Assembly: GCA_015491705.1 (NCBI GenBank)
Contig: WFVK01000311.1
Location: 1 to 6,499, forward strand
Direction of reading: 5' to 3'
Source of the DNA: Nitrospirota bacterium
GTDB taxonomy: Bacteria; Nitrospirota; Thermodesulfovibrionia; UBA6902
DNA length: 6,499 nt
The first letter of the stretch is position 1. The number at the start of each line of letters is the position of its first letter. A program made the position numbers and the translations under genes. Shown one piece after another: positions 1 through 5,019 of this stretch. The notes below the pieces were generated by a model. It was not told the DNA's origin and searched no databases. It worked only from the letters and a program-made list of their open reading frames with translations.

Positions 1-1
1 T

Positions 2-148
2 GGAAATACGTCTCTGTTGCAGGAAGTAACGGGGAGTGAAATTGCAAAAGAGGTTGATATGCGTGCTGAATATTTCCTCAAGGAATCGCAGATAAAGCTT
101 TTCCGCCGGGCTCTCCGGCATGCGGGCGATGGTGTTATGCAACTGTAA
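2..148 (+). CDS. C-terminal fragment of an unrecognised protein (5' end outside window)
   Basis: An open frame enters from the left edge and stops at TAA 146-148, giving 48 residues that end in RRALRHAGDGVMQL. The other two forward frames close early in this stretch, which supports this frame as coding. The visible tail is charged and probably helical (EIAKEVDMRAEYFLKESQ), with no signal peptide, membrane segment or catalytic motif. I do not recognise the family. About 110 bases separate its stop from the promoter of the toxin-antitoxin operon, so it is probably a separate transcription unit. An internal ATG (59-61) exists, but the frame is open upstream of it, so a start inside the window is not needed. 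Confidence 0.45.
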   Translation, partial: GNTSLLQEVTGSEIAKEVDMRAEYFLKESQIKLFRRALRHAGDGVMQL

Positions 149-255
149 GGTTTAAAGAGTTGAGGCGTTGGGGAGTTCAGGATACCGGCACTGTTCACTG
201 ACACTTGGAAACAGAGATAATAAATAGAGCGAAAAAAGCAAGATAATGTCAAAAC

Positions 256-300
256 GTATTGCTATTTTAAAAAAGTAATGCTATACTGATAAAGTAATAC
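256..300 (+). promoter_or_regulatory. Promoter and likely operator of the VapBC operon
   Basis: A sigma70-like promoter is visible: TTGCTA at 259-264, a 17-base spacer, then TATACT at 282-287, predicting a start near 294 and a short leader before the antitoxin. Overlaid on it are three related half-sites: GTATTGCT (256-263) in one orientation, and AAAGTAATGC (272-281) and AAAGTAATAC (291-300) in the other. The last two are direct repeats with a 19-base period. AbrB-type antitoxins usually repress their own operon by binding repeats across the promoter, so these are the probable antitoxin or antitoxin-toxin binding sites. The promoter call rests on sequence match; the operator role is inference. 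Confidence 0.6.
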
Positions 301-303
301 TTC

Positions 304-314
304 AGGTGGGAGGT
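304..314 (+). promoter_or_regulatory. Ribosome binding site of the antitoxin gene
   Basis: AGGTGGGAGGT contains a strong GGGAGG (308-313) six bases before the ATG at 320. It fixes that ATG as the start and suggests efficient antitoxin translation. Confidence 0.7.
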
Positions 315-319
315 AAGGA

Positions 320-568
320 ATGGCGACGAGTACTTTAACAAGTAAGGGTCAGGTTACTATACCAAAGGAGATTAGAGAGGCGCTTGGACTCAAGGAGCAC
401 GACAGGGTGAATTTTGTCAGGAGGGGTGATGATATTCTTATAAAACCGGTCAAGGGTAACATTCTTGATCTGAGAGGTTCTGTACAGCCGGGAAAGAGAC
501 CCGAGGATTTTGAAGAAGTAAGGAGGATTACAAGGAAAATTATTGCTAAAAAGGCAGCCGGAAAATGA
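320..568 (+). CDS. vapB: AbrB/SpoVT-type antitoxin of a VapBC module
   Basis: This 82-residue protein opens with the swapped-hairpin AbrB DNA-binding signature: TLTSKGQVTIPKEIREALGL (residues 5-24), then a hydrophobic strand pattern to about residue 45 (DRVNFVRRGDDILIKPV). The basic C-terminal part (about 50-82) is what normally wraps the partner toxin. The length is typical of the family. In the cytoplasm it should bind and neutralise the PIN-domain toxin encoded next door and repress the shared promoter. The two genes overlap by ATGA (565-568), the usual sign of translational coupling. Base composition is AT-richer than the ligase and protease genes further right, consistent with a mobile toxin-antitoxin cassette. 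Family assignment is firm; target and operator details are inferred. Confidence 0.92.
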   Translation: MATSTLTSKGQVTIPKEIREALGLKEHDRVNFVRRGDDILIKPVKGNILDLRGSVQPGKRPEDFEEVRRITRKIIAKKAAGK

Positions 569-981
569 GCAGTGAGAAGATATTTGTTGACACGAATGTT
601 TTCCTCAGATATTTGACAAATGATGATGTTGCAGTAGCTGACAGGATTGAGAAAGTATTAAAAAAAGCATTCGTTGGAAAGGTATCACTTGTAACAAATG
701 TGTTTGTAATTGCAGAGATTATCTGGGTTCTTGAATCCTACTACGGGTACTCAAAAGAAGTAGTGGAAGTCATGGCTTCAAAGATTATAAATACCAGGGG
801 GCTTGAAATAAAAGATTCACATTTATTACTGAACGCATTAGACCTTTATGTATCTAAAAATATTGACTTTATTGATGCGTATAATGCCGTCTATATGAAG
901 GAACACAGCGTCAGGCGAATATTAACCCTTGATAGAAAGCATTTCTCAAGGATTGATGACATACACATCGAAAAGCTTTGA
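565..981 (+). CDS. vapC: PIN-domain ribonuclease toxin (VapC type)
   Basis: This 138-residue single-domain PIN protein has the acidic metal-binding residues in the expected order: D9 in FVDTNVFLRYL, E51 in VIAEIIWVL, D101/D104 in IDFIDAYNAV and D123 in ILTLDRKHF. PIN toxins of this class are Mg2+-dependent endoribonucleases, usually cutting tRNA or rRNA to halt growth; the specific target cannot be read from sequence. All catalytic positions are present and the length is normal, so it should be active. It has no clear Shine-Dalgarno of its own and starts inside the antitoxin stop (ATGA), implying coupled translation. Its codons are AT-rich. Immediately after its TGA the same frame continues into a decayed Cas6-like tail, so the toxin 3' end marks a recombination junction or an insertion boundary. 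Confidence 0.92.
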   Translation: MSSEKIFVDTNVFLRYLTNDDVAVADRIEKVLKKAFVGKVSLVTNVFVIAEIIWVLESYYGYSKEVVEVMASKIINTRGLEIKDSHLLLNALDLYVSKNIDFIDAYNAVYMKEHSVRRILTLDRKHFSRIDDIHIEKL

Positions 982-1119
982 AAAAAAGACTGGTCTCAAA
1001 AATCCACCCCCATGCTCGGCTTCCCCGGCACGTTTTCCGTGAACTTTGAAATCCCCGACTACCGGTGAATCGGCAAGTCGGTGTCAAGGGGGTTCGGGAC
1101 GGTGAAACGGTGTCGGTGA
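982..1119 (+). pseudogene. Remnant of a Cas6-type CRISPR RNA endonuclease (C-terminal end only)
   Basis: In the same frame as the toxin, the bases after its stop read DWSQKSTPMLGF, then GTFSVNFEIPDYR, an in-frame TGA (1066-1068), then IGKSVSRGFGTVKR and a second TGA (1117-1119). The glycine-rich pattern G-h-G-K-x4-R-G-F-G preceded by a hydrophobic strand ending in PDY is the hallmark C-terminus of Cas6 repeat-RNA endonucleases (Cas6b-like C-terminal domain). If the first TGA was GGA, the text becomes DYRGIGKSVSRGFGTVKR, restoring the first glycine of the motif with one base change. Everything N-terminal, including the RNA-cleaving histidine region, is absent, so this is non-functional debris. 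The family call is from memory of the motif and not from a search. No CRISPR array or other cas gene is visible. Confidence 0.68.
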
Positions 1120-1157
1120 CGGTTGACGGTGTCGGTAAAAATACAAACGGTGTCAGT
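1107..1157 (+). repeat. Three short direct repeats, ACGGTGTCRGT, about 20 bases apart
   Basis: ACGGTGTCGGT occurs at 1107-1117 and 1126-1136, and ACGGTGTCAGT at 1147-1157, with start-to-start spacings of 19 and 21 bases. A partial copy, CGGTGTC, is at 1079-1085 inside the cas6 remnant. The array overlaps the end of the remnant and lies between the convergent toxin and Mur ligase genes. It is too short and irregular for a CRISPR array. It may be a slippage-born minisatellite or a protein-binding cluster; I cannot assign a role. Confidence 0.55.
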
Positions 1158-1187
1158 TGGCGGCGCCGGTAGCGATACGGACATGGA

Positions 1188-2564
1188 CTACTGATACGGA
1201 TATCCGACACTGAGAATGCCGGCTATCTGTTTTGCAAGGTCTGCAAGGGTCTCGTCACGTGCGCCGAAGATTACATGCGTCTGATATTTGTTAAGCATCT
1301 TCAGGACATCGCTTCTCTTTTCCGTGGCTTCCGCGGACTTGCCGCGTGCCTTTATTTCTTCCGCAAGGTCACGGCTCGATATGTCCCTCGCGGCTGTCCC
1401 GCCCGCATAATATACAGGAAGGATGACAAGATGGTCCCCCTCGCGGAGGTTTTCAGTGAAGGCTTCGATGTATTCGTTTTTCATCATCCTCGTGGGAGTG
1501 AATCCATGAGGCTGGAATATATAACAAACTCCGTCCCGGAACCGTCCGGCTGTCTTCATCAGGGATGATATCTTGTGGGGATTATGGGCATAGTCATCAA
1601 TAACGAGGCTCTTTCCGTCATTCAGGTGAATGTCAAACCGTCTCTCTATGCCCTGAAACCGCGGCAGTACGCGGGCAATGTCATTGAGCGGAATCCCTGT
1701 TTCCGCAAGCAGTGCAATGCATGAGAGTGCATTGTAGAGGTTGTGTTCGCCCGGCAGCGCAAGGCTGAAGCCGGCTCCGTGCAGGGTAAAATCAGTGCTG
1801 AACTCCCTGTATTCAACATCTTCAGCCCTGTAATGTGAGGGATTGTGTATGGAAAATGTGATCGGTTTTCCGCATTTTATTTCAGAGAGGTTTTGATCAT
1901 CGGCATTCAGGATGATCTTTCCCGATGTGTTTTCCATGAGGGCACTGAACATCCGGGCGGTTTTATCAACGGGATGATGGTCAAGGGCAAGGTTCAGGAT
2001 GATCGAGTGCTGCGGTCTGTAGTTTACTATGCTGCCGTCTGATTCGCATGCCTCTATAACAAGATAATCCGAGTCCCCTGCCAGAAAGTTGCCCGGATTT
2101 GATGATGTCCTGAACTGTTTGACCCTTCCCCCTCCTATAAAATTGGGGTTGAGGCCGAGATGCTTCATCAGAAAGGCAAGCAGCCCTGAGGCGGTTGATT
2201 TGCCGCTTGTTCCTGAAACCGCCGTTGTCCTGAAGGATTCCGCGATTTCGCAAAGACAGGCGGGACGCGTCCTGACAGGGACTCCGAGCTCCCGGGCCTT
2301 TAATACCTCCGGAGTGCCGGCTTCCACCGCGGTACTGAAGACCGCCATGTCAAAGGTGCCGTCCAGACCCCGGCCGTCCTGAGGCACTACGGTAATTCCT
2401 GCGGAGGCGAATATCCTTTTAAGGGGATGGGCAGGGTTTGTGTCGAACAGCCTGTCCGAGCCCGCTACGGTATGGCCTTTGGCTGACATAAACCCGGCTA
2501 TTGCGGATACACCGCTCCCGGCTATACCCGAAAAAAACATCTTTAACGGCCTGTTCTTCATCAT
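1188..2564 (-). CDS. Mur ligase, MurC-type (UDP-N-acetylmuramate--L-alanine ligase family)
   Basis: This cytoplasmic ATP-dependent ligase of peptidoglycan synthesis has all three Mur domains. Residues below are numbered from the upstream ATG at 2588. The N-terminal Rossmann motif is GIAGSGVSAIAG (21-32). The ATP-binding central domain has GTSGKST (126-132), EACESDGS (179-186) and ALDHHPVD (201-208). The C-terminal domain has ERRFD (315-319), DDYAHNP (331-337) and FQPHGFTPTR (358-367). The ESDGS, DDYAH and FQPH motifs match MurC better than MurD, E or F; Mpl is the main alternative. The P-loop is atypical: GTSGKST replaces the usual GTHGKTT, suggesting a divergent paralogue outside the division cluster. 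I prefer the ATG at 2562-2564 because AAGGTG (minus strand of 2573-2578) lies eight bases upstream. The ATG at 2588 lies inside a hairpin repeat and lacks a good ribosome site. Confidence 0.82.
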   Translation of the reverse strand: MMKNRPLKMFFSGIAGSGVSAIAGFMSAKGHTVAGSDRLFDTNPAHPLKRIFASAGITVVPQDGRGLDGTFDMAVFSTAVEAGTPEVLKARELGVPVRTRPACLCEIAESFRTTAVSGTSGKSTASGLLAFLMKHLGLNPNFIGGGRVKQFRTSSNPGNFLAGDSDYLVIEACESDGSIVNYRPQHSIILNLALDHHPVDKTARMFSALMENTSGKIILNADDQNLSEIKCGKPITFSIHNPSHYRAEDVEYREFSTDFTLHGAGFSLALPGEHNLYNALSCIALLAETGIPLNDIARVLPRFQGIERRFDIHLNDGKSLVIDDYAHNPHKISSLMKTAGRFRDGVCYIFQPHGFTPTRMMKNEYIEAFTENLREGDHLVILPVYYAGGTAARDISSRDLAEEIKARGKSAEATEKRSDVLKMLNKYQTHVIFGARDETLADLAKQIAGILSVGYPYQ

Positions 2565-2572
2565 GGCATATA

Positions 2573-2578
2573 CACCTT
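2573..2578 (-). promoter_or_regulatory. Ribosome binding site deciding the Mur ligase start
   Basis: On the minus strand this reads AAGGTG, eight bases before the ATG at 2562-2564. It favours that start over the in-frame ATG eight codons upstream. Confidence 0.5.
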
Positions 2579-2581
2579 GCA

Positions 2582-2629
2582 GTTGCATAAAACATCACCC
2601 GTCCGCTTATGCAACATTAAGGATATCTT
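2582..2629 (-). repeat. Intergenic hairpin element, copy 1
   Basis: Perfect nine-base arms GTTGCATAA (2582-2590) and TTATGCAAC (2607-2615) enclose a 16-base loop with the core ATCACCCGT (2594-2602). A flank at 2616-2629 follows, ATTAAGGATATCTT. A second copy at 4975-5019 shares the arms, the loop core and 11 of 14 flank bases. This copy lies in the gap between the divergent Mur ligase and metallopeptidase genes and would be in the ligase's 5' untranslated RNA, ending just before its ribosome site. It is either a regulatory RNA or protein-binding element or a dispersed repeat. It has no U-tract on the outgoing side, so it is not a classical terminator. Confidence 0.65.
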
Positions 2630-2685: not shown

Positions 2686-3363
2686 ATGCGCCGGCTGGAA
2701 TTTCCATTTGATCCTGATGAAAGAAAACAACGCATCAGGGACTACATTGAGAAGACTACGCGCAGGACGGTATCTCTTGTCATAACCGATAATTCAACAA
2801 CCATGCTGTCAATAAAAGATACTGGCAGGGCCCTTATGCTCAGGCTTCACAGGATCTTCCTTGAAGCCGGCATTGACGTTTTAAACGAATTGTCGGATTA
2901 CATAAAAGGGAGGAAGGGCAGGACGCCGCTGATCAGGAATTTTATAAATTCCAACACGCACAAGGTAAAGGAAAAACCGCCGAGGAGGGTTAATCTCAGG
3001 ACAGAGGGGAGGTATTACAATCTCCTTGACATCTACCGTTCGGTAAATGATACATACTTTGGAGGCAGGGTATCGGCATCCATCACATGGGGGAGCAGAT
3101 CTCCGCGCCGCTCGGCAAGGAAAAGAACCCTCGGGAGTTATACCGGCCGGGGCAGCCTGATAAGAATAAGTCCTGTTCTTGACTCCGGGAAGGTCCCCAG
3201 GTATTTTCTGGAATATATCGTCTACCACGAGATGCTGCATGCCGATATGGGAATCAGGGCGGGCAAGGGCAGACGCATAATACATTCCCGGGAATTCAGG
3301 AGACGCGAGAGATTATTCAAACACTACGACAGGGCGATCGCCTGGGAGAAAAAGTGGTGGTAG
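2686..3363 (+). CDS. SprT-like zinc metallopeptidase domain protein
   Basis: This 225-residue protein has a zincin active site: YHEMLHADMG gives HExxH at H181-E182-H185, and H200 in HSREF is the likely third zinc ligand about 15 residues on. The preceding segment (about 112-170: LLDIYRSVNDTYFGGRV, ITWGSRS, LGSY, IRISPVLDS) is the SprT-type core that leads into the catalytic helix. The first 110 residues are rich in Lys/Arg and not recognised; they may bind nucleic acid, as SprT/Spartan-family proteins often do. No signal peptide or membrane segment is seen, so it is cytoplasmic. Substrate is unknown. The start ATG at 2686 has only a distant TTAAGG (2668-2673, 12 bases away). A TATATT at 2674-2679 lies so close that the message could be nearly leaderless. 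Its 3' end is 14 bases from the convergent protease gene. Confidence 0.8.
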   Translation: MRRLEFPFDPDERKQRIRDYIEKTTRRTVSLVITDNSTTMLSIKDTGRALMLRLHRIFLEAGIDVLNELSDYIKGRKGRTPLIRNFINSNTHKVKEKPPRRVNLRTEGRYYNLLDIYRSVNDTYFGGRVSASITWGSRSPRRSARKRTLGSYTGRGSLIRISPVLDSGKVPRYFLEYIVYHEMLHADMGIRAGKGRRIIHSREFRRRERLFKHYDRAIAWEKKWW

Positions 3364-4974: not shown

Positions 4975-5019
4975 GTTGCATAGAACTATCGCCCGTTTAT
5001 GCAACATTGAGGTTATTTT
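4975..5019 (-). repeat. Intergenic hairpin element, copy 2
   Basis: Eight-base arms GTTGCATA (4975-4982) and TATGCAAC (4998-5005) enclose a 15-base loop with the core ATCGCCCGT (4988-4996). The flank ATTGAGGTTATTTT (5006-5019) runs up to the radical SAM stop codon. It matches copy 1 at 2582-2629 in arms, loop core and flank, in the same orientation. It lies between two same-strand genes, about 40 bases before the subtilase start. It could be a leader element of the subtilase, a processing or attenuation site between the two genes, or a dispersed repeat. The stem is AT-rich and lacks a following U-run, so intrinsic termination is unlikely. Confidence 0.65.

Follow-up and report, generated by a model that had tools for sequence, protein, structure and literature searches.

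What is the 3' end of a cas6 gene doing directly behind a toxin gene, with the rest of cas6 missing? We met this arrangement in a window that comprises an entire contig (C311, 6499 bases) of a Nitrospirota assembly of 2.26 Mb, 409 contigs and 88.7% completeness. Of the genomes used for comparison, G036 belongs to the same family as the window genome and G002 to the same genus. Features of the window are listed in Table 1.

Table 1. Features of the window, with strand and supporting matches.
Feature	Position	Strand	Evidence or remark
Gene end at contig edge	2-148		No Pfam match; no match among fetched loci
MazE/AbrB-type (VapB-like) antitoxin gene	320..568	+	Pfam MazE_antitoxin PF04014, 9.9e-15; NCBIfam AbrB domain, 2.3e-15
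PIN-domain (VapC-like) toxin gene, open frame	565..981	+	Pfam PIN PF01850, 1.5e-11
Broken 3' end of cas6b gene	977..1107	+	83% over 132 columns against intact cas6 of G036
In-frame TGA within cas6 fragment	1066..1068	+	
Three imperfect 13-base direct repeats, immediately 3' of cas6 fragment	1105..1157	+	
Mur-ligase-like gene	1188-2588	-	Top NCBIfam match MurC, below MurC cut-off
RiPP-maturation radical SAM C-methyltransferase, truncated by contig end	5020-6492	-	NCBIfam TIGR03975, E 9.9e-163

A cas6 remnant behind a predicted toxin gene

The first-pass annotation read positions 982-1119, in the frame of the toxin gene, as KKDWSQKSTPMLGFPGTFSVNFEIPDYR, a stop codon, IGKSVSRGFGTVKRCR and a final stop codon, and assigned them to the Cas6 C-terminus from a family motif. 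Frame, letters and stop are correct, and the assignment is right: with the TGA read as X, this stretch matches Cas6b_C (Pfam accession PF17262, E 1e-12, 48.7 bits, cut-off 39.4) and the PADLOC models for Cas6 (1.9e-14) and Cas6b (5.3e-13), and its DNA is homologous to intact cas6. The fragment has no match in NCBIfam. The Cas6b_C match covers window positions 982-1116 and only the last third of the profile (75-113 of 114). A profile of the cas6 3' end (hereafter the tail) scores 76.6 bits on the window and at most 1.3 bits on 20 shuffled windows, and five profiles (tail, cas6, cas1, cas2 and cas4) reach at least 9 bits nowhere in the window except at the fragment. The observation of a predicted Cas6 C-terminal remnant is confirmed.

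The cas6 of G036, the best-matching gene of our panel, aligns with the fragment over cas6 nucleotides about 520-651 of 669. The limits of DNA homology vary with the cas6 compared, starting at 972-978 at the earliest (972 with G091) and ending at 1100-1119; with other cas6 genes the homology begins at 991-1006. Because the alignment of the best-matching gene begins at the end of vapC, the VapC stop codon lies inside the cas6 homology. The interruption had been put down to a single G-to-T change, which falls short: about three quarters of cas6 are missing and there are further residue differences from intact relatives. The 5' part of the fragment also differs in length from intact cas6. There is no complete open frame of Cas6b (PF17262/PF17955) at the fragment, which contains an in-frame stop, and no Cas6b_N match over cut-off anywhere in the genome; the fragment is therefore a remnant and not a working Cas6b.

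The antitoxin and toxin genes overlap by 4 bases, and the PIN toxin gene lies immediately 3' of the MazE/AbrB-type antitoxin gene, a layout from which we predict a VapBC pair. Toxin functions, in the window and at the other loci, are assigned by family membership alone. The VapC protein has no match in NCBIfam or PADLOC. It looks about full length, since its homologue at L140, the only one of 19 loci where the homologue end was readable under our filter, stops at about the same place. The genome has a second Mur-ligase-like gene besides that of the window. Short intergenic inverted repeats, GTTGCATA...TATGCAAC, occur in the window (2577-2620 and 4975-5010), with similar ones, judged by eye, on contig C393 of the same assembly (about 2284 and 3040-3070); those of both contigs resemble a dispersed palindromic repeat.

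A second tail in the same genome

Contig C393 encodes, in this order, a TumE toxin (Pfam 7.3e-22), a 45-codon Cas6b tail, Cas1, a small protein and Cas4, followed by the beginning of a CRISPR array. The small gene has the position of cas2 and was called by eye. The tail is an open frame of 45 residues with an ATG (621-758). Its cas6 homology reaches the TumE stop codon and begins, in the earliest matches, at cas6 nucleotide 517, compared with 516 in the window.

Beyond the window and C393, we identified no further Cas6b_C match in the assembly, which has a single cas1 and carries the repeat pattern twice. An effector module was sought in this 88.7% complete genome and rejected, with no PF01881 match and Cas6b_N as above. 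A search for a cas3 of the L030 type also returned nothing, although such an empty result shows nothing when no control accompanies it.

Orphan cas6 tails across genomes

The tail profile matched 25 of the 395 genomes of the phylum, own genome included, and a scan of genome contigs yielded 40 loci in many phyla. We use the term orphan for a tail that no cas6 body immediately precedes; 35 such tails were catalogued, from 24 genomes and 27 contigs. These genomes are labelled Nitrospirota, Deltaproteobacteria, Planctomycetes, Clostridia and Euryarchaeota. Because most loci come from metagenome bins, taxonomic labels may be wrong, and small contigs, such as the two Euryarchaeota contigs of a single bin, may have been put in the wrong bin. 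The catalogue had 36 rows before G336 (L073) was dropped, its contig ending 94 bases upstream where the frame is still cas6-like; G166 (L069/L105) was excluded from the count for the same contig-end reason. The names cas2, cas3 and flagellar were assigned by eye.

In 34 of the 35 orphan tails, the earliest DNA homology lies at or beyond cas6 nucleotide 500 of about 670, in the last quarter of the gene. The exception (G380) starts at 446, and there a profile detects decayed cas6 further upstream; a protein profile somewhat lengthens a few other tails as well (model positions 156-179 of about 222). Longer cas6 remnants should have been picked up, because they too would contain the tail.

In 31 of the 36 rows an open frame of the same orientation lies upstream, and for 17 of them the best match falls at most 30 bases from the stop codon of that frame. 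PIN genes or TumE-cluster members make up eight of the 17 adjoining frames; the remaining nine comprise cas3 (G325), cas6 itself (G399), a YhcG nuclease, one antitoxin-like gene, two genes of nucleotidyltransferase type and three unknown frames. Over the whole set, genes preceding orphan tails include VapC, TumE, HEPN/nucleotidyltransferase, HicA and YhcG types. Orphan tails of three different genomes (L067 in the 4700s, L087 in the 5950s, L110 in the 1880s) share a palindromic insert at an identical place in the tail, with the sequence TCCTGAACTTGATTCAGGA or one very similar.

Layouts of loci with an intact cas6

Both a full cas6 and cas1 are in view at 24 distinct loci, which are no random sample because they were picked by their tails and are unequally related. 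Genes lie between the two in 19 loci; cas1 directly follows cas6 in five. Fifteen of the 19 have one or more intervening genes that exceed the cut-off of a Pfam family (toxin, antitoxin, HEPN, nucleotidyltransferase-TA or YhcG) or share a BLAST cluster with such a gene (E up to 1e-5). Two of the 19 are weaker cases, one with a gene in the cluster of an antitoxin match just below cut-off (L095) and one with a nucleotidyltransferase only (L103). The two left over carry a Bro-N-like gene below cut-off (L097) and an ORF6N-like gene recognised by eye (L081).

Full cas6, toxin-antitoxin (TA) cassette and displaced tail occur together in single loci with several gene families: VapBC (L089), a YhcG nuclease (L102), HicA (L175), HEPN/nucleotidyltransferase (L085, L104), a TumE pair (L110) and ORF6N (L174). 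The last of these, from another cas6 lineage, is ordered cas6, ORF6N, tail and second cas6. Some loci form ladders of the type cas6-TA-tail-TA-tail-cas1. L087 has cas6, two open frames, a tail, a TumE pair, a second tail, nucleotidyltransferase-type genes and cas1; L117 has cas6, tail, TumE pair, tail and cas1; and L114 has three tails. Where a locus holds at least two orphan tails (L067, L087, L101, L114, L117 and L119), the first outscores the second in five of six, with a tie in L087. Two observations speak against a simple order of age: at 39 bits, the third tail of L114 scores no lower than the second (37), and in L104 a weak match of 14 bits and 16 residues lies between cas6 and a tail of 51 bits. 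Cassette proteins without a Pfam match were found in L028 (27-293), L096 (5658), L087 (5179 and 5639), L117 (1697), L175 (1744) and L105 (323).

Decay is seen at two other loci. G308 has TA pairs and tails ahead of a decayed cas1, and G380 has a decayed cas6, a decayed TumA and Phd/ParE. In G397 (L071, C91), a tail-Phd-ParE unit at 422-1304 lies between CRISPR repeats seven and eight, in the place of a spacer. About 65 bases after this tail are nearly identical to those behind the cas6 of G312, and about half of them also occur in other aligned Phd/ParE copies.

Conservation of the tail

Among 15 full-length cas6 genes, protein identity is 94% in the tail and 45% in the rest, and identity at fourfold synonymous sites is 51% versus 41%. 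The high amino-acid identity of the tail thus mostly reflects protein constraint, and these values led us to reject strong homogenisation of tail DNA among loci. We also compared codon choice in near-invariant columns of 27 cas6 genes with the expectation from codon usage per locus. The mean z was 4.3 in the tail (31 columns) and 1.96 in the body (35 columns; one-sided p 0.0046), and cas1 from 21 of the loci gave 0.94 (174 columns; best 36-column run, 1.99). The excess in the tail beyond codon usage is moderate, and a motif of the cas6 body around PWLA is also high.

Nine orphan tails share their locus with a cas6 tail; in an ungapped comparison, which misjudges copies with insertions such as G142, that tail was the closest of 57 other copies in three of nine cases and among the top four in five. 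These results are compatible with exchange within the tail, short of proving it.

Did the window site hold a CRISPR-Cas locus?

The first-pass annotation concluded that the site once carried CRISPR-Cas. The fragment alone is no proof of this, because a tail with a TA pair can sit off the cas operon, as in G397. A profile scan of the window turned up no match to cas1, cas2 or cas4 of at least 9 bits, and the CRISPR repeat pattern of the genome (27 bases, at most two mismatches) occurs on C393 only. We looked for the Mur-ligase site in relatives. In the same-genus G002 the neighbours differ and include no cas gene (by eye), and across the 20 loci compared, window positions 1-1300 had no match at E < 0.15. 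With no cas6 body, cas1, cas2 or cas4 adjoining the fragment, the history of the window has to be read from its relatives. Likely readings are a TA pair and tail that survived the loss of the cas genes, or a cassette transferred from a CRISPR locus elsewhere. The earlier interpretation thus stands in part: its Cas6 assignment holds, and its two options, a TA pair inserted into cas6 or left beside it, are compatible with the recurrent cas6-TA-tail layout, whereas the single-base cause and the former CRISPR locus do not follow.

How tails may come to lie behind toxin genes

The end of cas6 is likely a recurrent entry spot for TA pairs into CRISPR loci. In the window genome, the tail behind the second toxin starts at nearly the same cas6 base as the first tail. 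Further support comes from the clustering of orphan-tail starts late in cas6, from loci that combine full cas6, cassette and displaced tail, from the genes between cas6 and cas1, from the scores of successive tails, from the decay series and from the conservation of tail DNA beyond codon usage. We consider it somewhat probable that recombination placing a TA cassette at the 3' end of cas6 left the window fragment. From the layout alone, itself directly observed, we infer the following mechanism. Incoming DNA with a TA pair beside a cas6 3' end would pair with the final ~45 codons of the resident cas6; its other end would join at or near the same stretch. The outcome would be a whole cas6 with the new TA pair behind it and the displaced old tail behind the toxin, marking the joint. 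Repeated entry would build ladders with the newest cassette closest to cas6, and upon loss of the cas genes the TA pair and tail would stay.

Several findings count against entry of cassettes by this route. We found no close strain pair with and without a cassette, and so no insertion caught in the act. The same-locus cas6 is nearest in only three of nine comparisons, and 51% fourfold agreement is low for RecA pairing of distant loci. Several orphan tails follow cas3, cas4 or cas6 with no toxin. The window VapC has homologues in 66 other genomes of the 395 searched (top identity 58%), and as a cassette marker it had to be abandoned: of the 67 matching genomes, own genome counted, none has it at a listed tail place except in the window. 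Separately, mobile carriers were sought and rejected, with 0 of 22 candidate stretches confirmed on viral contigs, no match in phages, and only two Runella records among plasmids, with Cas6 at 47-49%.

The main rival is exchange of effector modules, in which the cas6 3' end is a seam between the effector genes and a block of TA genes and cas1-cas2-cas4. A new effector operon would arrive with its own cas6, and sometimes TA genes; the break would fall in the old cas6, whose tail remains, and the TA pairs would be passengers. An intact cas6 at the operon front with an orphan tail behind cas3 (L174, L176, L178 and L179, by eye), and cas3 followed by a tail in L116, L112, L115 and L122, suit such an exchange. 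It does not account for the frequency with which tails lie against a toxin stop codon, or for the tail-Phd-ParE unit within the CRISPR array of G397. As the source of the window fragment we regard it as rather unlikely, although it may also be at work alongside cassette entry. Simple local decay, in which a CRISPR locus beside VapBC was deleted and the cas6 end left by chance with nothing recurrent, agrees with the broken frame, the lack of a visible function, the VapBC family being common in the phylum and the decayed loci of G308 and G380. Against it stand the shared breakpoint at the second toxin and the concentration of breakpoints (34 of 35) in the final quarter of cas6, which make it quite improbable.

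We think it very unlikely that an unseen, trans-acting recombinase recognises a DNA site within the 3' end of cas6 and moves the cassettes in the manner of an integron. The excess codon conservation of the tail, high at several codons encoding KSVSRGFGT, and the toxin-to-tail junction common to the TumE cassettes of L101 and L119 are what such a site might produce; junction positions, however, spread over about 80 bases, and about 30 cassette proteins scanned include no integrase or transposase. Assembly or binning artefacts, with repeated cas6 tails causing unrelated contigs to be joined, are possible at individual tail junctions, that of the window included, in a fragmented metagenome assembly of 409 contigs, and several tail contigs end near the tail. 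As a general cause they are highly improbable, as the layout appears in independent assemblies from several phyla and on long contigs (L087, 67646 bases; L119, 144061 bases). We give hardly any credence to the tail being a translated small Cas6 C-terminal peptide with its own function: the C393 frame is open and many orphan tails keep the consensus residues, but the window tail and many others carry stops or are truncated.

If cassette entry is correct, the orphan tail would be a readable scar of TA entry into CRISPR-Cas loci, and it possibly also marks where effector and adaptation modules swap. It could serve for counting insertions, for trial ordering of entries along a ladder and for finding sites where the TA pair is left and the cas genes are gone. 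A bolder proposal, which we judge unlikely, sees in the final ~110 bases of cas6 a docking site through which a mobile system of TA cassettes enters and exits CRISPR-Cas loci across phyla. Were it true, cells would be bound to CRISPR by integron-like arrays that persist after it is lost and are recognisable by the cas6 tail.

Comparison with known systems

In rhs and cdi loci, new toxin modules are gained at a conserved stretch, and older ones, the orphan toxin/immunity modules, are shifted downstream together with a piece of it. The cassettes proposed here would likewise push an old tail downstream, but their anchor is the end of cas6 and not part of a toxin gene. Integrons hold arrays of small gene cassettes, often TA pairs, each with a copy of a short site. 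Here the repeated site is cas6 coding sequence, and the scanned cassette proteins lack an integrase.

Toxins in CRISPR loci are treated in PMC3506569. In the Sulfolobales, cas gene cassettes are interspersed with VapBC pairs, sometimes several per locus, and these pairs have been suggested to help in keeping the CRISPR system (PMC4390879, section 8). This older suggestion becomes testable, because orphan cas6 tails can be searched for in any genome. TA pairs inside cas loci are thus already known (PMC4390879), and the displaced cas6 tail is perhaps a new aspect. That section mentions no displaced cas6 3' end, and our literature search, which covered few subscription papers and is weak evidence of novelty, found no description of one; the loci analysed here have a narrow insertion place and a readable scar. 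CreTA is likewise a TA system nested in a CRISPR-Cas locus, and it can make cells depend on that locus (PMC12737573). As described there, CreTA is RNA-based with a crRNA-like antitoxin, whereas the pair in the window consists of two predicted proteins.
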